From Microbacterium sp. (GTDB taxonomy: Bacteria > Actinomycetota > Actinomycetes > Actinomycetales > Microbacteriaceae): a stretch of 64,000 bases of DNA. A model generated the notes under the pieces. It was not told the DNA's origin. It saw only the letters and a program-made list of their open reading frames with translations, and made no database searches. A program made the position numbers and the translations under genes. Location of the stretch: NCBI RefSeq assembly GCF_017305435.1, contig NZ_JAFKIP010000004.1:62001-126000 (forward strand), written 5' to 3'. This document shows, piece by piece, positions 3-25,618 of the stretch; position 1 is the first letter of the stretch, and each line of letters opens with the position of its first letter.

Positions 3-956
3 CACGTCCTTGTCGACCCATCCATGACGCGGGAGAACCTGTACGTCGCGCTCACTCGTGGCCGGGACGCGAACCTCGCCTACGTCGCCATCGACAAGCC
101 TGACGACTCCCACCAGGGGCCGCACCCCGGCGACAACACTGACGCCACCGCCCGCTCCGTGCTGTTCGGGGTGCTCCAGCACGGCGGCGCCGAGCTCTCC
201 GCCCACGAGACCATCACCGCCGAGCAGGACGCCTGGGCGAACATCGGCCAACTCGCCGCGGAGTACGAGACAATCGCCGCCGCAGCCCAACGCGACAGAT
301 GGGCGAACCTCGTTCGCGCATCCGGACTCACCGACGACGACGCGGACGTTGCGATCAGCTCGCCGGCATTCGGCGCATTGGCTGCTGAGCTGCGCCGCGC
401 GGAGGCCAACCACCACGACATCGAGACCCTGCTACCGCGACTCGTACGAGTGCGCGGATTCTCGGATGCCGATGACATCGCCGCCGTCCTCCACCATCGC
501 GTCACTCGCGCCACCGCCCGCCCCGCCGGGTCCGGCCGCGCCCGCAAGATGCCCCGGCTGATTGCCGGTCTCATCCCCGAAGCCACCGGCACCATGAGCG
601 GCGAGTTCCGGCAGGCGCTCACCGAACGACGCGACCTCATCGAGACCCGCGCCGCCGCCCTCCTCGACACTGCGCTCACCGAACAGCGGGGATGGACGAA
701 GGCGCTCGGAGCCCCGCCGAAGGACGCCAAGACCGCCGCGACCTGGCGCCGCCTGGCCCGCACGGTCGCCGCGTACCGCGACCGCTACGGCATCGCGGAC
801 CCGGCGCCACTCGGGGCGCCGGCCGAGAACGATGCACAGAAGATCGAGGCCGCCCGCGCCCGCGCCGCCCTTGATCGGGCACGCGACCTCGTGCGAGGGC
901 CGGGGGAGGAGCCGCAGCGGCGGCACGGGCGGGAGCCGGTGCGCCGCTCTCTGTGA
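3..956 (+). CDS. MobF-type conjugative relaxase/helicase, C-terminal part (5' end cut by window edge)
   Basis: The frame is already open at base 3 and runs to TGA at 954-956, so about the last 317 residues are present; the ATG at 24 is internal. The first residues include NLYVALTRGRD, the motif VI region of SF1 helicases as found at the C-terminal end of TraA/TrwC/TraI relaxase-helicases. The rest is a long Ala/Arg/Glu-rich helical tail usual for actinobacterial MobF proteins. These proteins nick oriT and unwind plasmid or ICE DNA during conjugation. Its position on the foreign side of the tRNA-Pro fragment at 7.4 kb fits an integrative conjugative or mobilisable element. The relaxase domain itself lies outside the window and was not seen. 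Confidence 0.8.
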   Translation, partial: HVLVDPSMTRENLYVALTRGRDANLAYVAIDKPDDSHQGPHPGDNTDATARSVLFGVLQHGGAELSAHETITAEQDAWANIGQLAAEYETIAAAAQRDRWANLVRASGLTDDDADVAISSPAFGALAAELRRAEANHHDIETLLPRLVRVRGFSDADDIAAVLHHRVTRATARPAGSGRARKMPRLIAGLIPEATGTMSGEFRQALTERRDLIETRAAALLDTALTEQRGWTKALGAPPKDAKTAATWRRLARTVAAYRDRYGIADPAPLGAPAENDAQKIEAARARAALDRARDLVRGPGEEPQRRHGREPVRRSL

Positions 957-1494: not shown

Positions 1495-1917
1495 ATGGGC
1501 GACTCCTGGGCGTCTAGCCTCGCGGCACGCAAGACGATGCTGGGAAACCGCGGTCGCGATACCAAGCCTGAGCTCGCTGTGCGGCATCTTGTGCACGCAC
1601 AAGGGCTGCGTTACCGCGTCAACGCGCGACCAGAGATCGGAATCCGACGGACCGCCGATCTGCTCTTCACTCGTATGCGCGTGGTCGTCTTCATCGACGG
1701 CTGCTTCTGGCACAAGTGTCCGACCCACTTCTCGATGCCAGTCACAAACCAGGAGTTCTGGCGCGAGAAGATCGACGGAAACGAGCAACGAGACAGACAA
1801 ACGACGACCCTGCTGGAGGATCGTGAATGGCTCGTACTGCGTTTTTGGGAGCATGAGGACCCGGTGTCGGTGGCGGATCGTATCGTCAGAGAGATACGAG
1901 ACCGACCCCACCGGTAG
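1495..1917 (+). CDS. vsr: Very short patch repair (Vsr-type) DNA mismatch endonuclease
   Basis: 140 residues, full length for the family. Visible Vsr hallmarks are MLGNRGRDTKPE near the N-terminus, the metal-binding Asp in RRTADLLF (about residue 57), the VVVFIDGCFWHKC block with its conserved His, and the N-x-x-RD motif further on. Vsr nicks 5' of the T in T:G mismatches that arise when 5-methylcytosine deaminates, and it normally accompanies a C5 methyltransferase. That fits the dcm-like gene 190 bp downstream on the same strand. In some R-M loci Vsr-fold proteins act as the restriction nuclease. As no other nuclease is visible here, that role is possible but not shown. Confidence 0.9.
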   Translation: MGDSWASSLAARKTMLGNRGRDTKPELAVRHLVHAQGLRYRVNARPEIGIRRTADLLFTRMRVVVFIDGCFWHKCPTHFSMPVTNQEFWREKIDGNEQRDRQTTTLLEDREWLVLRFWEHEDPVSVADRIVREIRDRPHR

Positions 1918-2104
1918 GCCCCAGACTGCCCTCCGCCCAGGCGTGGCTAACCAGTGATCCACCGTGGCGCGGTCAGTCGTGCCTCTGTTCACGCACCGGT
2001 AAGGTAGTGGGAGGTGGCGTGTCGGCTCGGCGAGTCGCGCGCCACGACGACGTTGGTCGTGTTCTCCTGGAGGTGGACGTCTAGACGGGAAGGAGCGCTG
2101 GAGC
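1918..2104. promoter_or_regulatory. Leader of the methyltransferase operon with short hairpin
   Basis: 187 bp gap. CACGAC at 2043-2048 pairs with GTCGTG at 2056-2061 (7-nt loop), and a GGAAGGAG ribosome site lies at 2088-2095. The hairpin could be an operator or attenuator. No clear -35/-10 pair was recognised, so this is only the likely promoter region of the three-gene operon. Confidence 0.3.
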
Positions 2105-3934
2105 TTGGCGACATACGCAGTAAAGCTGGAGCGTTCAGTGCCGCTCGTCCTCCCGAGGCACCCGGACGCACCAGGCGACGACAGCTTCGAGGAGTGGTGT
2201 CGGCGAGAGAAGTCCTCCGGGCGTCCCCTCGCCGTTGACCTCTTCTCTGGCGCGGGAGGTCTTGGAGCGGGCGTCGAGGCTGCAGGGTGGACGGTCGTAG
2301 CTGCGGTCGATCATGATACTGCGGCACTGGAGACACACCGAGCCAACTTCCGGGGCAAAGCACTCGAAGTCGACATGGCTGAGCCATCCCAGGTGGCCGC
2401 GCTCATCGAGAACCTCCGCCCGCTTGGGATTGACCTCGTAGCCGGAGGCCCTCCATGTCAGCCTTTCAGCCGTGCTGGACGGGCGAAGATTCGCAGCCTC
2501 ATCAACGACGGCGTGCGCGACGAGATCGACGCCCGGAAGGAACTGTGGCGGTCGTTCATCGATGTTGTCTTGGCACTGAAACCGCGCGCAGTTCTCATGG
2601 AGAACGTCCCCGACATGGCGATCGGCGATGACCTCGTCGTCATCAGGGCGATCGCCGACATCCTCGAAAGCGCCGGATACGTTGTCGACTATCGGCTCCT
2701 TGACGCATGGCGTCACGGAGTCCCGCAGCATCGCAAGCGCTTCATCCTCCAGGCACGCAATGATGGGGCTCTGCCGGCTTGGCCCACACCTATGGAGCAC
2801 CGCCCGACCGTCCGTGATGCGATCGAGGATCTTCCTTCGCTCGACGAAACCACCGGTGCGCGCGAACTGCCCTACATGGGCCAACCATTCAGCGCGCTGG
2901 CCAAGACCCTCCATGACGACGACGCGGACATCATCTACGACCACATGACACGTCCGGTGCGGGACGATGACCGCGAGGCGTTCCAGCTCATGACCTCCTC
3001 AACCCTGTACTCGGACCTCCCTGAGCACCTGCGCCGATATCGCTCCGACACCTTCAACGACAAGTACAAGCGCCTCGACTGGGACGACCTGAGTAGGACG
3101 ATCACGGCTCACATCGCCAAAGACGGCTACTGGTACATCCATCCACAGGAACACCGCACACTCACCGTCCGCGAAGCGGCACGTATCCAGACCTTTCCAG
3201 ACAGCTTCCGCTTCGCAGGGACCCGCAGTGACGCATTTCGACAGATCGGCAACGCAGTCCCGCCAGCACTGGGCCGGACCGTCGCAGAGGCGATCCTGCC
3301 CCTCGCGGAGCCGCACGAGGAGCAGCCCAGACTTCCCGATCTGCGCCGGAGGCTGTCGCTGTGGGCCGTCGAGCAGAGACAGACGGCATGGTGGCTCTAC
3401 CCTGGGCCGGACATGACGGCCGCTGCTGCCGCGGTCGCCGCTCTGCTTGACATGCACCGACTTCCTGCTGCAACCGCCGCGTCGCTCATGGAACCGCTCC
3501 GAGGCGTTCCGGACCTCTCCGTCGAGTCGCTCCAGCACATCGAAGTGCACACGCTCAGCAAGACCCGCAGGGACGCTGTAAGGCAGCTTCGAGGCATCGT
3601 CCGCGAGAGCCCGTCTGTGGACTGGACACCGCGCGTTGCAGCCATGCTCGGCGACGCACAGCACCGCGTGTTCTCGCTATTACGCGGTGGCAACGAACTT
3701 CTTGTCAACGAGCACGTCAGCAAAGTCGTGACCCTCCTGATGGAGCTGCCCGAAGGGCACACCGGTCTGCGGACTGACATCAAGGTTGCGCTCGCACAAC
3801 TGGTCTCCGGCGGCGACGAAGCTGCATTGAGGATGTGCGCGATCCGTGCGATCACTGTCTCCGAGGCGCGCGCCCGAATCCTCGACCCCGCCACTCCACA
3901 CCCAGCAGAGTCCAGGGGAGAGCGAGTCTCATGA
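2105..3934 (+). CDS. DNA (cytosine-5) methyltransferase with extra C-terminal domain
   Basis: 609 residues from TTG 2105, chosen because GGAAGGAG ends 9 nt upstream. The first ~390 residues are a C5-MTase: motif I DLFSGAGGLGAG (45-56), motif IV GGPPCQPF with catalytic Cys118, motif VI ENV (166-168), motif VIII QHRKR (208-212), and motifs IX-X in the TVREAARIQTFPDSF and QIGNAVPP stretches. Residues ~400-609 are not part of a normal C5-MTase. They are helical and faintly recall the HhH-GPD glycosylase fold, but with no catalytic Lys/Asp pair visible; that likeness is uncertain. The stop overlaps the next ATG (ATGA), so translation is coupled to the GHKL gene. The target sequence cannot be read from the protein. 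Confidence 0.93.
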   Translation: MATYAVKLERSVPLVLPRHPDAPGDDSFEEWCRREKSSGRPLAVDLFSGAGGLGAGVEAAGWTVVAAVDHDTAALETHRANFRGKALEVDMAEPSQVAALIENLRPLGIDLVAGGPPCQPFSRAGRAKIRSLINDGVRDEIDARKELWRSFIDVVLALKPRAVLMENVPDMAIGDDLVVIRAIADILESAGYVVDYRLLDAWRHGVPQHRKRFILQARNDGALPAWPTPMEHRPTVRDAIEDLPSLDETTGARELPYMGQPFSALAKTLHDDDADIIYDHMTRPVRDDDREAFQLMTSSTLYSDLPEHLRRYRSDTFNDKYKRLDWDDLSRTITAHIAKDGYWYIHPQEHRTLTVREAARIQTFPDSFRFAGTRSDAFRQIGNAVPPALGRTVAEAILPLAEPHEEQPRLPDLRRRLSLWAVEQRQTAWWLYPGPDMTAAAAAVAALLDMHRLPAATAASLMEPLRGVPDLSVESLQHIEVHTLSKTRRDAVRQLRGIVRESPSVDWTPRVAAMLGDAQHRVFSLLRGGNELLVNEHVSKVVTLLMELPEGHTGLRTDIKVALAQLVSGGDEAALRMCAIRAITVSEARARILDPATPHPAESRGERVS

Positions 3935-6177
3935 GTGCCGATGTCCAGCAGGCCGTGAGCCATGAACCCTCGGGCAGTGGCGCGCTCCGTCCCAAGGCGC
4001 GGCTGCTCCGGACACTTGGCAGCGACCTGATCAGCAGCGACAAGGTCGCTCTGATCGAACTGGTCAAGAACTCCTACGACGCCGACGCCAGCGTTGTTCT
4101 CATTCGCTTCCACGGCCCGCTGGAGGAAGGGAAGGGTCGCATCGAGGTATGGGATGACGGCCACGGCATGGACGTCGCCACACTCCAACGCTCGTGGCTC
4201 GACATCGCGACCGACACCAAGAGACGACGCCCTCGCAGCGACAGAGGTCGACGAGTGCTCGGCGAGAAGGGCATCGGTCGACTCGCCGCGGCCCGGCTCG
4301 GGCACGAGATGATGCTCGTCACCAGGATGACCAATGCTGACGAGGTCAAACTCCTGATCGACTGGACGGACTTCGATCGCGAGGACGCGTACCTCGATCA
4401 GATCGAGGTCGCCTGGGAAGTCGGAGCACCCGACGTCTTCTCTGACTCCGGCGCAGCCATTGACACCTTCTCCGCAGCCGAAAACGAGACCTGGCACCAC
4501 GGCCGCGGGACCGTAGTCCAGATTGACCGCCTTTCTCGTGCGTGGGATCGCGAGGACCTTCTTGAACTGCGCACGGCGCTGACGCGGCTAATACGGCCCC
4601 GTCCTGGCACAGTGTCAAGCCTCGCGAGTGCAGAAGATGCCGAGCCCGATTTCCAGGTGATCCTGGAACTGGTTGACGTCGAGGAGGGACTAGAAGACCT
4701 CGCTGGTCCGATCGAGCCATCGTCTGAACTCCAGACCCCTCACTACAGCCTCACCGGCTTCGTGGATGCCCAGGGGTCCGCCACGCTTCGCTACGCACAA
4801 CAGGACCCTCCGCTGGAGGAGGATATCGGCGTCAAACAGTTGTGGACCGATGAGAAGCGCTCCCCACATGCAGGACCCTTCGACTTCGAGATCAATGTCT
4901 GGGACCGAGACAAGACAGCCATCCAGCGGACCCTCCAGGAGACCGGTGCCGAGAGTGCAGCGCCCAGCGCGAAGGACTTGAAGGGCTTCCGTGACACGCT
5001 TAGCGAGGTTGCCGGTGTCAGCATCTATCGAGATGGCTTTCGAGTCCTTCCATTCGGTGAAAGCGGCGATGACTGGCTCGGGCTCGACCTGCGACGCGTC
5101 CAGACGCCGACCCGTCGGGTGTCGAACAACCAGATCATCGGTCACGTCTTCATCGGTGCCGACACGAACGAAGGACTCAAGGACCAGTCGAACCGCGAGG
5201 GCATACTTGCTGGCACCGCCTACTCGGACCTCCAGACGCTGGTGAAAGCTGCTCTCGTTGAGCTTGAGACGCGACGCTATGCCGCGCGCCACCCCAAGAA
5301 GGAGCCCGGGGAGAGCAAGGGTGGCCTATTCGAGCGGTTCGACCTTGGGGAGATTCGCACCGCCTTGGCCCAGAGCTACCCTGGCGACAAGCGTCTCATC
5401 GGACTCATCGACGACAAGAACCGCGACATCCAAGAAGGAGTAACCGAGGTTCAGAACGTCTTGTCGCGATACTCCCGACTTGCCACTCTCGGGGCACTTA
5501 TTGATCGAGTCCTCCACGATGGCCGAACCGTGGTGACACGACTCAAGAACATCGCGCGATTTGGTGCTCGCGACCTCGACAAGAAGAACCTCACCGACAG
5601 CGAGAAAGTCACGATCGCTGCGACAGCCATGTCGGACACGACGACCCAAGCCGATCTGCTCTCCTCTCTCTTTAAGCAGATCGAACCCTTCGGCGGCCGC
5701 AAGCGCGGACGACCCAAGGAAATCAGCACCAGCGACGTCATCGACAAGGCAATCTCAATCCTCCAGCAGGAAGCCGACGATCGCGGCGTTGACTTGGTTC
5801 GAGAGGGTGACCCAGTCGCCGTGAAACTCGATGAAGCTGAAATGTTGACAGTCCTCATCAATCTCATCCAGAACGCCATCTACTGGACCTCAACTCAGCC
5901 AAAGGGGACCGAGCGGAAGGTGATCGCAGCCGCCCGACTGAACGATGACTCCTCATTGAGCCTCGTTGTGAGCGACTCTGGACCCGGGGTGGCGGAGGGG
6001 GTCCGTGGGCACATTTTCGACCCCTACTTCTCCAGCAAGCCGGAAGGCGTGGGGCTCGGCCTGAGCATCGTAGGAAACCTCGTCGAGGACATCTACGAAG
6101 GCCAGCTCATTCTTGTTGACGAAGGTCCTCTCGACGGCGCGACTTTCGAGGCCACCTTCAGGAGGCGGGTCCAATGA
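3931..6177 (+). CDS. Double GHKL ATPase: Hsp90/MORC-like N-terminus plus histidine-kinase-like C-terminus
   Basis: 748 residues from the ATG that overlaps the methyltransferase stop. The N-terminal ATPase has all three GHKL motifs: ELVKNSYDADA (E43, N47, D50), WDDGHGM (74-80) and GEKGIGR (111-117). The C-terminal part looks like a sensor kinase: a DHp-type helix RLATLGALIDRVLHDGR with His529, N-box NLIQNAIYW (N648), DSGPGV (682-687), FDPYFSSKPEG, and GVGLGLS (706-712). No signal peptide or membrane span is seen, so it is cytosolic. ATPases of the MutL/MORC type occur in R-M and Vsr loci. The added kinase half and the response-regulator gene overlapping its 3' end suggest phosphotransfer to that partner. 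Phosphorylation of His529 is inference. Confidence 0.88.
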   Translation: MSADVQQAVSHEPSGSGALRPKARLLRTLGSDLISSDKVALIELVKNSYDADASVVLIRFHGPLEEGKGRIEVWDDGHGMDVATLQRSWLDIATDTKRRRPRSDRGRRVLGEKGIGRLAAARLGHEMMLVTRMTNADEVKLLIDWTDFDREDAYLDQIEVAWEVGAPDVFSDSGAAIDTFSAAENETWHHGRGTVVQIDRLSRAWDREDLLELRTALTRLIRPRPGTVSSLASAEDAEPDFQVILELVDVEEGLEDLAGPIEPSSELQTPHYSLTGFVDAQGSATLRYAQQDPPLEEDIGVKQLWTDEKRSPHAGPFDFEINVWDRDKTAIQRTLQETGAESAAPSAKDLKGFRDTLSEVAGVSIYRDGFRVLPFGESGDDWLGLDLRRVQTPTRRVSNNQIIGHVFIGADTNEGLKDQSNREGILAGTAYSDLQTLVKAALVELETRRYAARHPKKEPGESKGGLFERFDLGEIRTALAQSYPGDKRLIGLIDDKNRDIQEGVTEVQNVLSRYSRLATLGALIDRVLHDGRTVVTRLKNIARFGARDLDKKNLTDSEKVTIAATAMSDTTTQADLLSSLFKQIEPFGGRKRGRPKEISTSDVIDKAISILQQEADDRGVDLVREGDPVAVKLDEAEMLTVLINLIQNAIYWTSTQPKGTERKVIAAARLNDDSSLSLVVSDSGPGVAEGVRGHIFDPYFSSKPEGVGLGLSIVGNLVEDIYEGQLILVDEGPLDGATFEATFRRRVQ

Positions 6178-7271
6178 AGAAGAAGGTACGCGTCCTCATC
6201 ATCGAGGACAAGGCTGACCTCGCCGCAGACGCGAGGCGCGAGATTGAAGACGCTTTCGAAGAGAGCGACGAGATCGAAGTTGAAGTCTCGGTAGAGACAG
6301 ATTTCGACAGGGGATTCGCACGCGTCCGTGCGCGTGAAAGCGACGTGGTCGTGTTGGATGTCCGTCGCGACGCCTCTGAGTCTGTGACAGAGGACGACAC
6401 TGCTGGGCAAGCTGTCTATCGGGACATCAAGGAAGCCTGTTTCGCGCCGGTTGTGTTCTGGACGGCTCTACCCGAAAAGGTAAATCATGAGCAGATGAGT
6501 CCCTTGGTGACGGTGGTTACCAAAGAGGAGACGGTCAAGCTTCCGGCCGCTATTCAAGCAGCCGTTGCAAGCGGAGCGCTGACCACGATCAGCGATATTG
6601 AACAGCATGCCGCGGACGTACTCCGAAAGCACATGTGGACGGAACTTGCCCCGAACTGGGCGGAGTACACCGGAGACACTGACTCCGCGGGCATCACTCA
6701 AGTGCTACTCAGTAGGCTCGCTCGAATCCTTGACGAGGATCGTGACCAGACGTTCACGACTCACCCGAGCCATCGCTACGTGTATCCACCCGCATCGGAC
6801 CGCCGATCACCCGGTGACGTACTTCGCGCAACGGACCAGACCTGGTGGGTAGTTCTTACGCCTGCATGTGACTTCGAGCAGGACAAGGTCGATTACGTTC
6901 TTCTCGCCAAGGCCAGCCCACTTGCGGAGCACCCGAAGTATCAGAGGTGGGCGAGCGCGAACGCTGGCAGTAATAACGAGAAGGACCGTTGGAAGAGCCT
7001 GGATCAGGATGTCCTCAGGGCGACGCACGGGAGGTTCCACTTCCTCCCTGCGTTCCGCGAGATCCCAGATTTGGTGATCGACCTAGAGAACGTGAGGGCG
7101 GTCGAGGTTGACGCGCTGGACCACTTCGCCTGGGTTGCATCACTCGTCAGTCCGTTTGCTGAGGCATTGCTGGTGCAGCATAGCCACGTCCGTGGACGCA
7201 TCGGAGTGCCCGACCTCGATTCTGAACGTGTCAAGCAGCGCCTATTGGGCGGTCAGCCGGCGGCCAGCTGA
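6174..7271 (+). CDS. Response-regulator receiver protein with unrecognised C-terminal effector domain
   Basis: 365 residues; the ATG overlaps the stop of the GHKL gene (ATGA). Residues 1-~125 form a receiver domain: acidic pair E11-D12, phospho-acceptor D62 in VVVLDVRRD, T97 in VFWTALP, and K117 in VVTKEE. The remaining ~240 residues contain no helix-turn-helix, GGDEF or other output domain that I recognise. A notable segment is VLTPACDFEQDK with a Cys-Asp pair at 232-233. The upstream kinase-like protein is its natural partner. The gene ends 48 bp before similarity to the other att end begins, making it the last gene of the element. Function unknown; a defence or methylation-control role is inferred from its neighbours. 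Confidence 0.85.
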   Translation: MKKKVRVLIIEDKADLAADARREIEDAFEESDEIEVEVSVETDFDRGFARVRARESDVVVLDVRRDASESVTEDDTAGQAVYRDIKEACFAPVVFWTALPEKVNHEQMSPLVTVVTKEETVKLPAAIQAAVASGALTTISDIEQHAADVLRKHMWTELAPNWAEYTGDTDSAGITQVLLSRLARILDEDRDQTFTTHPSHRYVYPPASDRRSPGDVLRATDQTWWVVLTPACDFEQDKVDYVLLAKASPLAEHPKYQRWASANAGSNNEKDRWKSLDQDVLRATHGRFHFLPAFREIPDLVIDLENVRAVEVDALDHFAWVASLVSPFAEALLVQHSHVRGRIGVPDLDSERVKQRLLGGQPAAS

Positions 7272-7318: not shown

Positions 7319-7438
7319 AAAACGTGACGTGCGAAGCGCGATCCTGAAACGCAAAACCCCAGGTCAGGTGGGTTATGAGCCCTACTCCTACCACCTGGGG
7401 GTCAAGGGGTCGCAGGTTCAAATCCTGTCATCCCGACC
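7319..7438 (+). repeat. Element end (att copy A): 3' fragment of tRNA-Pro(GGG) with flanking shared sequence
   Basis: Bases 7395-7438 reproduce the 3' part of a tRNA-Pro(GGG) gene from the anticodon loop through the variable loop, an intact T arm (GCAGG/CCTGT stem around TTCAAAT) and the 3' acceptor strand. No 5' half is present. A collinear but mutated copy lies at 18162-18280. The two also share AAAACGTGACG and TCCTGAAACGCAAAA at matching distances upstream. This is the pattern left when a tyrosine-recombinase element integrates at a tRNA 3' end. The intact tRNA and integrase would lie to the left of the window. Confidence 0.8.
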
Positions 7439-7442
7439 GGAG

Positions 7443-7478
7443 AAAGCCCTGGTGGATCAGACGATCTGCCGGGGCTTT
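7443..7478 (+). terminator. Hairpin downstream of the tRNA-Pro fragment
   Basis: AAAGCCC at 7443-7449 pairs with GGGCTTT at 7472-7478. The related sequence after att copy B (CGCCCCGG...TCGGGCG) also forms a hairpin, so this is probably the ancestral terminator that followed tRNA-Pro. No long T run follows. Confidence 0.5.
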
Positions 7479-7561
7479 CGCTTTGTCCGAAAGCGCCGAG
7501 GACTCCGAAGAGACTCTGGAGCGTCAGCATTAGAGCGCTCTCATCGCCGCTGTCATATGGC

Positions 7562-8168
7562 GTGTCGAGGGGAGATATCTGTGCCCGCGCAGGTGGCCAG
7601 CCGCTCGACAAGGTAGATATGGCTGCTGCGCTCGGCATCAGCCCTGGCGGTTCTAGTTTGCGGACGCAGGGGTTCGCGTCGAGCGCCTACGGACTGACCG
7701 GAGGTGGCTTCCAATCGGCGTTCTCGATGGCGCCACTTGAAGACGCGATGCCCTCGCCGACATCGCAGGAGGAACACGATGAAGCGCTCGTAAAGACTGC
7801 GCTCAAGCCTGAGCTTTTCACAAAGCTCTTCGAGGCATACACGGGGAAGAAGTATCCCGAGACGCAGTTCCTCGTGAGCGCACTCAAGCGCAACTTCGAC
7901 GTGGCGGACGGTCAGGCCGAGGCGTGCGCGGACATCTTCACCAAGAACATGAAGTTCGTAGGTTTGCTGCGCGACACAAGGGGTGGCATTTGGCTTGTCG
8001 AGCGCCCGACGCGGGAACTGCCGGGGTGCTGAGCAGTGAGGGCTCTTCGGATCGTGAGGACGAGGCTGACGAGAAAGAGGCGGAAGAGGCAATCGAGATC
8101 CCGCGTGACGCTCTCACTCCGCCGTCTGCCGAACCGCAGCGCTCAAAGCGCCCAAATAAGCTGTTCGG
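7562..8168 (+). pseudogene. Broken gene resembling TIR-like predicted nucleotide-binding proteins, with frameshift
   Basis: From about 7610 the frame reads like the helical N-terminal region of a conserved family (AAALGISPGGSS, YGLTGG, then ALKPELFTKLFEAYTGKKYPE and GGIWL). Near 8005-8015 the sense continues in the +1 frame: a polar linker rich in Glu/Asp leads to RPNKLF at about 8150-8168, the usual lead-in to the 'F..HG' start of TIR-like domains. The TIR-like domain itself is absent. There is also no proper 5' end, only a GTG at 7562 without a good ribosome site. I read it as the decayed remnant of an anti-phage-type gene in the older island. The family assignment is from memory and moderate at best. 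Confidence 0.45.
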
Positions 8169-8372
8169 TGGGTCTGCATGGTCGGCTCAGACGGCGACCG
8201 CGCAGCGGAACTCGCGCCATCCGGGCAGGTTCTGGGGGGCGGGCTGCGCCGGGCTCGAACCCGCGATGCGCACCGAGAGTGCAACGCCGCCGTCCGTCAG
8301 GTCCCGTGGTGACGACTGAGGCAGGGCAAGTCGGCACCGGCAATCCGCCGAGGCCGTCACCCTTTCGATGCC

Positions 8373-24124: not shown

Positions 24125-25618
24125 ATGTCAGGCACACCCGCGCAGGATGCCGCATTCGTCGACACCGCGTCCCGCCCCGAGACTCGGGGGATCGAGCTCA
24201 TCTCCGACGCCGAGCGGCATGGTCGCGCCCGCGACCTGTTCCTCATCTGGGCGGCGCCGAGCGTCAGCATCCTGAACTTCACGATCGGCGCGACCATGAT
24301 CCTGCTGGGCCTCGAGCTGTGGCAGGCGATCGCGGTGATCCTGGTGGCATCCCTCCTCTGGGTCTTCCCCGGTCTGATCGCCGCCAGCGGACCCGCCGCC
24401 GGCACGAGCGGCTCGGTCGTGACGCGAGCGATGTACGGCATCATCGGTAACCGGCTGTTCGTCGCGTTCGTCGGCTGGTTCATCGGCGCCGTGTTCCTCT
24501 CGCTCACCTGGCTCGCGTCGTCGTTCATGGGCGCGGATCTGCTGGGCCGGTTGGGGCTGACCGACCCCGTGTGGGCGCCGATCGGGGTGACCCTCGTCGT
24601 CTCGGCCGTCACGATCCTCGTCGCGATCTTCGGGCACGGCCTGATCCTCCGGGCGTACCCGGCCATGTCGGCGGTGCTGTTCGTCATCTTCGTGCTCGTC
24701 GCCGCGTTCGTCCTGCCGACGGCGGACTGGAGCTACCGCGCACCCGAGCCCCTCAGCGGCCTCGCGCTGCTCTCCGCCCTGTCGATCGGCTTCACGATCC
24801 TCGCCTCGACGCCGCTGTCGTTCATCAACAGCCCCGACATCGCGCGCTACCTGCCGCGTTCGATCAAGCCGGCGCACATCGCGTGGGCGACGGGTCTCGG
24901 CGGTGCCATCCCGTCCATCGTGTTCACGTCGGTGGGTGCGCTGCTCGCGACGGGCGTGAAGAGCGGGTTCGACGCCGGCATCGACGCGATCCTGTTCGAC
25001 CTCCTCCCGGTGTGGCTCGGCCCCGTTCTCGTGCTGGGCGTCGTCGTCAACACGATCGCGCTCAACGCGATGACGGCGTACACCTCGTCGATGGCTCTGC
25101 AGGCGATCGGGCTGCCGCTGCGCCGCATCCCCGCCGCGATCATCGTCGGCGTCGTGGGCACGGCACTGACGATCTACCTCGTGCTCACCTCGAGCCTGCT
25201 GGCGGCGGCGAACCTCATGCTGCAGTTCCTCGTCGTGGTGTCGGGGCCGGCGATGGCCATCTACGTCGTCGATGCCCTCTGGCGGCGCTACCGCTACGAC
25301 GGCGAGGACCTCTTCGATGAGCGCGCGGGCGGCCGGTTCTGGTACACCGGCGGATGGAGCGTCCCCGGCGTCGGCGCGCTGCTGATCGGCGCGTTCGTCA
25401 CACTCATGTGCCTGTCGACGGACATCTGGGTCGGTCCCGTCGCCGCCGCCCTCGGGGGTGTCGACGTGTCGGTCCCGGCGGGCATGCTGGTCGCCAGCGT
25501 CGGCTACGCCGTGCTCCTGCGCACGCCGCTCGGAGCCGGTGGACGCCCCGATGCCCGAGACGCCAGGGACGGCGCCGTCGTCGGCGCCTCCGCCCTCGAC
25601 GAAAGGAGCCGCGCATGA
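24125..25618 (+). CDS. NCS1-family (purine-cytosine permease) transporter
   Basis: 497 residues from ATG 24125 with GAGAGGAAG upstream. About twelve membrane segments are visible. The N-terminal region RARDLFLIWAAPSVSILNFTIGA and the loop GPAAGTSGSVVTRAMYGIIGNRL are characteristic of the NCS1 family, which carries nucleobases, hydantoins, allantoin and related compounds with Na+ or H+. The internal SFINSPDIARYLPRS segment also fits. The stop overlaps the start of the amidohydrolase (ATGA). The substrate is probably a nitrogen-rich small molecule degraded by the neighbouring enzymes. Confidence 0.88.
   Translation: MSGTPAQDAAFVDTASRPETRGIELISDAERHGRARDLFLIWAAPSVSILNFTIGATMILLGLELWQAIAVILVASLLWVFPGLIAASGPAAGTSGSVVTRAMYGIIGNRLFVAFVGWFIGAVFLSLTWLASSFMGADLLGRLGLTDPVWAPIGVTLVVSAVTILVAIFGHGLILRAYPAMSAVLFVIFVLVAAFVLPTADWSYRAPEPLSGLALLSALSIGFTILASTPLSFINSPDIARYLPRSIKPAHIAWATGLGGAIPSIVFTSVGALLATGVKSGFDAGIDAILFDLLPVWLGPVLVLGVVVNTIALNAMTAYTSSMALQAIGLPLRRIPAAIIVGVVGTALTIYLVLTSSLLAAANLMLQFLVVVSGPAMAIYVVDALWRRYRYDGEDLFDERAGGRFWYTGGWSVPGVGALLIGAFVTLMCLSTDIWVGPVAAALGGVDVSVPAGMLVASVGYAVLLRTPLGAGGRPDARDARDGAVVGASALDERSRA

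Follow-up and report, generated by a model that had tools for sequence, protein, structure and literature searches.

What might a histidine kinase and its response regulator do beside a DNA methyltransferase at the end of a mobile element? This question is raised by four genes at positions 1495–7271 of a 64,000-nucleotide stretch of a Microbacterium sp. genome (RefSeq assembly GCF_017305435.1, contig NZ_JAFKIP010000004.1, positions 62,001 to 126,000; hereafter the window). The genes encode a very-short-patch-repair endonuclease (Vsr), a C5-cytosine DNA methyltransferase, a kinase that joins a MORC-like ATPase to a histidine-kinase core, and a response regulator. We regard this cassette as real, recurrent and mobile, and as probably immune in function; its genes, domains, conserved catalytic residues, co-occurrence and mobility were observed directly. 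We propose a DNA-modification-linked two-component immune cassette, and we consider the chances of the full model given below to be about even.

Genes and domains of the cassette

An earlier note, made from the sequence alone, had reported these four genes as a set. Their positions and ATGA overlaps were borne out, their families were confirmed by PADLOC, NCBIfam and Pfam, and the observation as reported is confirmed. The overlaps between methyltransferase and kinase at 3931 and between kinase and receiver at 6174 are real, and a gap of 187 bp separates vsr from the methyltransferase gene. The features are as follows.

1495–1917, + strand: vsr, 140 aa, very-short-patch-repair endonuclease family (TIGR00632, 118.6 bits, cut-off 97.85; PF03852, E 4.8e-17)
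2105–3934, + strand: C5-cytosine DNA methyltransferase, 609 aa, TTG start (PF00145, E 2.7e-56), conserved across loci
2234–3295, + strand: catalytic domain of the methyltransferase (residues 44–397)
3332–3931, + strand: C-terminal extension of the methyltransferase, probably EndoIII/MutY-like glycosylase-derived, without FeS cysteines
3931–6177, + strand: MORC-histidine kinase fusion, 748 aa
4036–4407, + strand: GHKL ATPase of the kinase (residues 36–159), followed on the same strand by a transducer-like region up to residue ~455
5515–5517, + strand: H529, in the helical linker and DHp region of the kinase
5830–6162, + strand: CA domain of the kinase (residues 634–744)
6174–7271, + strand: response regulator, 365 aa
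6174–6575, + strand: receiver domain REC (residues ~1–134), with the phospho-acceptor D62 at 6357–6359
6786–7211, + strand: output domain of the receiver (residues ~205–346), with TP-x-C232-D233 and R342-x-G-x-P346
7395–7437, + strand: attR, a 43-bp repeat of the tRNA-Pro(ggg) 3' end and the right end of a 44-kb integrative element

In the kinase, a MORC-like ATPase and a histidine-kinase core make up one polypeptide. The N-terminal GHKL and S5/transducer fold places the kinase with the MORC/paraMORC ATPases and is MORC3-like, and the window pair has the architecture HATPase_c_3, DHp and HATPase_c with an adjoining receiver. The idea of a phosphorelay, put forward in the earlier note, is supported by the residues that such a relay uses. 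The phospho-His is invariant in all 47 related loci, as are the N-terminal ATPase residues that were checked, and the phospho-Asp is kept in 27 of 27 loci whose receivers carry the output domain. Phospho-His, phospho-Asp and ATP-binding motifs are all conserved, as in two-component systems, and in nine kinases that were compared the DHp motif reads H[D/E]GR, a point of difference from the HEF_HK elements discussed below. In PHROGs the kinase matches only families labelled unknown function or "kinase".

The receiver had no match in Pfam or PADLOC up to E 0.1, its NCBIfam matches lie far below the cut-offs, and no PHROGs family matched its output domain. This domain is marked by an invariant Cys and by the motifs TPxCD and RxGxP. 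Between the window and a related Microbacterium metagenome-assembled genome (MAG; locus L015), identity is 95% for the kinase, 92% for the methyltransferase, 76% for REC and 65% for the output domain; the receiver (window 6174–7271) is thus more divergent than its kinase and methyltransferase partners.

The ~200-aa extension of the window methyltransferase has no Pfam match. The corresponding extension at locus L053 (7173–7685) matches MutY/EndoIII structures (best E 9.5e-6) and contains a cysteine cluster, which according to the alignment is missing from the window protein. The extension probably derives from an EndoIII/MutY-like glycosylase. Vsr is the sole nuclease that PADLOC, NCBIfam and Pfam recognise in the window cassette; the output domain could itself be a nuclease.

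Recurrence with DNA methyltransferases

We compared 47 loci: the window, nine from genomes, nine from plasmid records and 28 of 40 from viral contigs. The viral contigs were filtered by the kinase hidden Markov model (HMM; E<1e-40, at least 650 aa), which excluded 12 weaker or shorter loci, though most of these also have a C5-methyltransferase match. Plasmid records with a kinase match numbered 52, 41 of them from Campylobacter; the nine taken include two of the latter. In the Campylobacter records CP120242 to CP120313, which are similar plasmids, annotation splits the kinase region into several parts, so that the gene may be broken.

A DNA methyltransferase lies within 5 kb in 40 of the 47 loci (C5 in 28, N4/N6-type only in 12). 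Homologues of the pair are thus not found mainly without a methyltransferase. The repeated association of kinase and receiver with a DNA methyltransferase, often along with Vsr, which the earlier note had named as the support to look for, is borne out. The seven remaining loci are L059, L060, L066 and L067, each bordered by a contig edge on one or both sides, and L069, L111 and L113. Of the 27 output-domain loci, a C5-methyltransferase is present in 20 (14 of these with Vsr nearby), an N4-type enzyme in four and none in three. Since the window's genome holds three C5-methyltransferase matches in 3.5 Mb, roughly 1% would be expected near a given gene by chance. The amino-methyltransferases have Pfam support at L064, L065, L070, L076 and L090 (below cut-off at L078) and support from annotation at L114 and L115.

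Two loci (L060, L067) break off inside the kinase or just where it stops; 44 of the 45 with downstream sequence have an adjoining co-directional open reading frame (ORF) of more than 180 aa. Some model identifies 39 of these 44 ORFs as receiver-like: 31 by an iterated REC model, five by the output-domain model, which reaches receivers missed by the REC model (L064, L065, L082, L113, L114), and three by profile comparison with REC (scores of 90 for L069, 54 for L068 and 64 for L115, whereas 30 random ORFs reached 3.5 at most). Reversed sequences, used as a control, gave no HMM match. At other places in the loci, the REC model detects four further ORFs that resemble response regulators.

Linked kinase, receiver and C5-methyltransferase occur in Actinomycetota, Pseudomonadota, Bacteroidota, Campylobacterota and Fusobacteriota, some of these phyla being assigned from the organism name. 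Within the window's genus the output domain is found in five of 295 genomes, always with kinase and methyltransferase and in three cases with Vsr. At the order level two of 396 genomes match it, the second with a standalone protein. A full-length receiver profile "matched" 204 of 396 genomes of the phylum and was dropped, since nearly all rows among those listed were REC-only, as expected of ordinary response regulators; retained were the window, G355 (full length) and the output-domain-only rows G255, G120 and G355:C35. A match in the phage collection (H24) is a ZraS-type kinase and was also dropped.

A compact variant recurs at L070, L071, L072, L081 and L090, consisting of a kinase, a short receiver (214–232 aa), an HNH-like gene and an N6-type methyltransferase. 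On a Hymenobacter plasmid (L115:198–2429), an annotated Piwi-domain protein and a DNA methyltransferase adjoin a set of kinase, receiver and N6 methyltransferase.

A mobile cassette

The 43-bp repeat of the tRNA-Pro(ggg) 3' end occurs twice on the contig that holds the window (G000:C1), at 24969–25011 inside the intact tRNA gene and at 69395–69437 (window 7395–7437). The two copies delimit an integrative element of ~44 kb in tRNA-Pro, and the cassette ends 123 bp before attR, at the very end of the element as the earlier note had claimed. An integrase-like ORF lies beside attL with a TraG/VirD4-like ORF behind it, both named from their sequence. Inside the element, and outside the window, there is a second C5-methyltransferase match (G000:C1:56804–57154). 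Window positions 24–956 resemble by appearance the C-terminal end of the element's relaxase/helicase; they have no Pfam match.

In the related MAG an identical repeat flanks a segment of only 7.5 kb (L015:1036–8565), which contains vsr, methyltransferase, kinase, receiver and a gene with an HNH signature (7372–8370). No integrase was found among its long ORFs, and the segment may therefore move in trans. Cassettes from Microbacterium, Buchananella and Propionibacteriaceae are 86–93% identical in DNA over 5.2–5.8 kb, which suggests recent transfer between families. The cassette DNA had no match in the plasmid collection.

The output domain

The predicted receiver model gave five viral Foldseek rows of interest, four PemK/MazF and one endoribonuclease (E 0.012–0.023, probability 0.91–1.00, TMt 0.31–0.63), weak matches at 6–14% identity. 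The order of strands and helices in its output domain agrees with the MazF fold. Many of the rows that score better represent receivers or kinases. For the receiver, the VIA list is mainly confined to residues 2–140 and has no bearing on the output domain. A PemK/MazF-like fold is perhaps what the model depicts, and we treat it as a lead rather than a result.

The output domain is also encoded by standalone genes (L054:8854–9417, L055:8103–8675, L056:2718–3281 and L109:1471–2061), three of the four with a small overlapping upstream gene in a toxin-antitoxin-like arrangement. The standalone protein had no match in the phage collection. At L074:8861–9820, on a viral contig with a C5-methyltransferase near, the C-terminus of the receiver matches HEPN weakly.

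A proposed mechanism

ATP-driven clamping is the mode of action of GHKL-transducer ATPases, and histidine kinases hand phosphate to receivers. In what follows, methylation sensing, phosphotransfer, effector activity or toxicity, and phage defence are inferred. The C5-methyltransferase would mark host DNA as own, with Vsr as its companion repair gene against deamination of 5-methylcytosine. The MORC/MutL-like clamp of the kinase would sense DNA without the proper mark, or another infection state. Closure of the clamp on DNA would be followed by autophosphorylation at H529, and movement of the phosphate to D62 of the receiver would release the C-terminal output domain. This domain, perhaps of PemK/MazF-like fold with conserved residues of its own, would be a nucleic-acid-directed effector; alternatively, the receiver may license a nuclease. 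Relatives of the cassette carry an added separate nuclease gene (HNH, AspBHI-type) or a HEPN-like domain in place of the output domain. More tentatively, and with some doubt on balance, we suggest innate immunity of a distinct class, where a MORC clamp reads methylation and signals through a His-Asp phosphorelay to a toxin-like receiver output (PemK/MazF-like here, HEPN-like in relatives), with methyltransferases (C5, N4, N6) and nucleases freely swapped. Such a system would be a phosphorelay-gated form of restriction or abortive infection.

In ordinary restriction-modification (R-M), own and foreign DNA are told apart by competition between nuclease and methylase at a site. If our model is true, a kinase that reads the state of DNA and passes phosphate to an effector would follow a different logic, graded and reversible, and could set off a response of the whole cell. 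For the MORC-type ATPases of bacteria, about whose activity little is known, autophosphorylation would be an output open to direct assay. The model would also account for a two-component pair that repeatedly travels with DNA methyltransferases of unrelated classes.

Several observations weigh against this immune model. The census loci were retrieved by response-regulator or kinase queries, mostly from collections of mobile DNA. Five of them are closely related to the window, and the counts therefore do not represent independent events. Some of the counted loci served as seeds for the amino-methyltransferase models, and the calls at L071, L072, L081 and L082 come solely from these models. At L111 and L113 no methyltransferase was detected within 5 kb, and L069 has a weak N6_Mtase match. 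L066 has sequence downstream of the kinase but no receiver gene there, and the ORFs of L063, L076, L078, L079 and L116 were judged receiver-like by eye alone, their profile scores of 0.5–11 being at the control level or a little higher. As for the fold, the PemK/MazF rows come without ranges from a predicted model, and dUTPase and deoxyribosyltransferase rows outscore them. The catalytic Arg and Thr of MazF are not conserved in the output domain. Comparison of this domain with PemK by hhalign gave a probability of 2.7, Pfam gave no PemK/MazF match up to E 5, and a search of PDB sequences returned nothing of note.

The main rival, which we consider unlikely, is that the kinase–receiver pair is not a weapon and instead controls the expression or activity of an R-M module, with an output domain that binds DNA or a partner protein. 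The available part of PMC8011034 speculates on such a regulatory role. However, no known DNA-binding domain appears among the Pfam matches of the receiver, and the window cassette contains no recognised restriction endonuclease to be controlled. Also, the output domain occurs alone in the more toxin-antitoxin-like setting described above, and one other receiver carries the weak HEPN match. A variant of Type II R-M, with cleavage by Vsr or a host nuclease that the MORC-kinase licenses, seems decidedly improbable to us. The methyltransferase of such a system is present, MORC R-M loci often contain Vsr-superfamily nucleases according to the available part of PMC2292703, and the kinase N-terminus matches PADLOC REase_II (E 2.6e-13) and NCBIfam BbrUII/HgiDII. 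The latter score of 68 bits is, however, far below the cut-off of 550; six of the 20 output-domain loci with a C5-methyltransferase have no Vsr within 5 kb; and Vsr is the most divergent gene in three of five close relatives (64–76% identity versus 90–93% for the methyltransferase).

A module in which the MutL-like ATPase, Vsr and C5-methyltransferase serve mismatch repair without an immune role would agree with the presence of Vsr and with the MutY/EndoIII-like domain on the L053 methyltransferase. In the 12 loci where the methyltransferase near the kinase–receiver pair matches only N4/N6-type models, repair of deaminated 5-methylcytosine would be irrelevant, and we give this explanation little credence. 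The position of the cassette at the end of the element would also fit genes that share this place without joint function. The overlapping reading frames and the linkage of kinase, receiver and C5-methyltransferase in records of five phyla make such chance cargo the least probable explanation, one that we find hard to credit.

Relation to described systems

Among the articles consulted in a literature search that left aside preprint servers and most subscription journals, only PMC8011034 (Bellieny-Rabelo et al. 2021) describes the pair. The available part of this article reports two-component-like pairs with an N-terminal HATPase_c_3 from 628 strains, a linkage of 91.6% across 644 regions, and frequent upstream C5-methyltransferases and Vsr in 20 genera; it proposes the families HEF_HK (PF19191) and Response_reg_2 (PF19192). 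The earlier note had put the system forward as a candidate undescribed one, which is not supported: no existing HMM in Pfam, PADLOC 2023 or NCBIfam names the set, but its theme had been named in PMC8011034. The window pair shares the HATPase_c_3, DHp and HATPase_c kinase beside a receiver, and the C5-methyltransferase and Vsr neighbours. It differs in that its proteins match neither PF19191 nor PF19192 up to E 0.1, and that receivers in 20 of the 27 output-domain loci have 340–398 aa versus the 600-aa query given in the available part of the article, where the output domain is absent from the description.

An iterated model finds the output domain in both the window receiver and longer receivers (L113, L114, L065 and L064, E 2e-22 to 2e-7; L082, E 0.001). 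The L113 kinase matches PF19191 with E 1.3e-4 and 22.8 bits, just below the cut-off of 24.1, and PF19192 is approached by the receivers of L064 (E 0.062) and L083 (E 1.4e-4, below cut-off); all links to these two families fall below the Pfam cut-offs. We think it best to place the window set, as a divergent branch, in one larger family together with the HEF_HK/Response_reg_2 elements. PF19192 matched nothing in 149 Actinomycetota genomes or in 14 control genomes, and its silence in the controls makes this result uninformative about absence. This branch is new, as are the shared output domain and the lead on its fold, the swapped methyltransferases and nucleases, the 7.5-kb att-flanked version and a testable phosphorelay model. 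A figure legend in the DefensePredictor article (PMC13092281) lists a predicted system that contains HATPase and REC.

The earlier note had named MORC-type ATPases with cytosine methylation and Vsr as a known R-M theme, and the available part of Iyer 2008 (PMC2292703) agrees, describing MORC/paraMORC ATPases in R-M loci with Vsr. These ATPases share with the window kinase the N-terminal GHKL and transducer-like region, the MORC3-like fold and the surrounding cytosine methylases and Vsr. The window kinase differs by its fusion to a complete histidine-kinase core and its pairing with a receiver, and the cassette has no helicase. Detocs likewise has a logic of kinase and receiver serving immunity; its DtcC carries a nucleoside phosphorylase domain. 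By contrast, no Pfam match to such a domain was found in the window receiver or kinase, and a DNA methyltransferase and a MORC clamp are present. VcSduA, a paraMORC3-like GHKL protein of the Shedu type, requires both its ATPase and its nuclease sites for phage defence according to the available part of PMC12137116. There, too, a GHKL ATPase is proposed to control an effector, but within a single protein that carries a PD-(D/E)xK nuclease and lacks kinase, receiver and methyltransferase.
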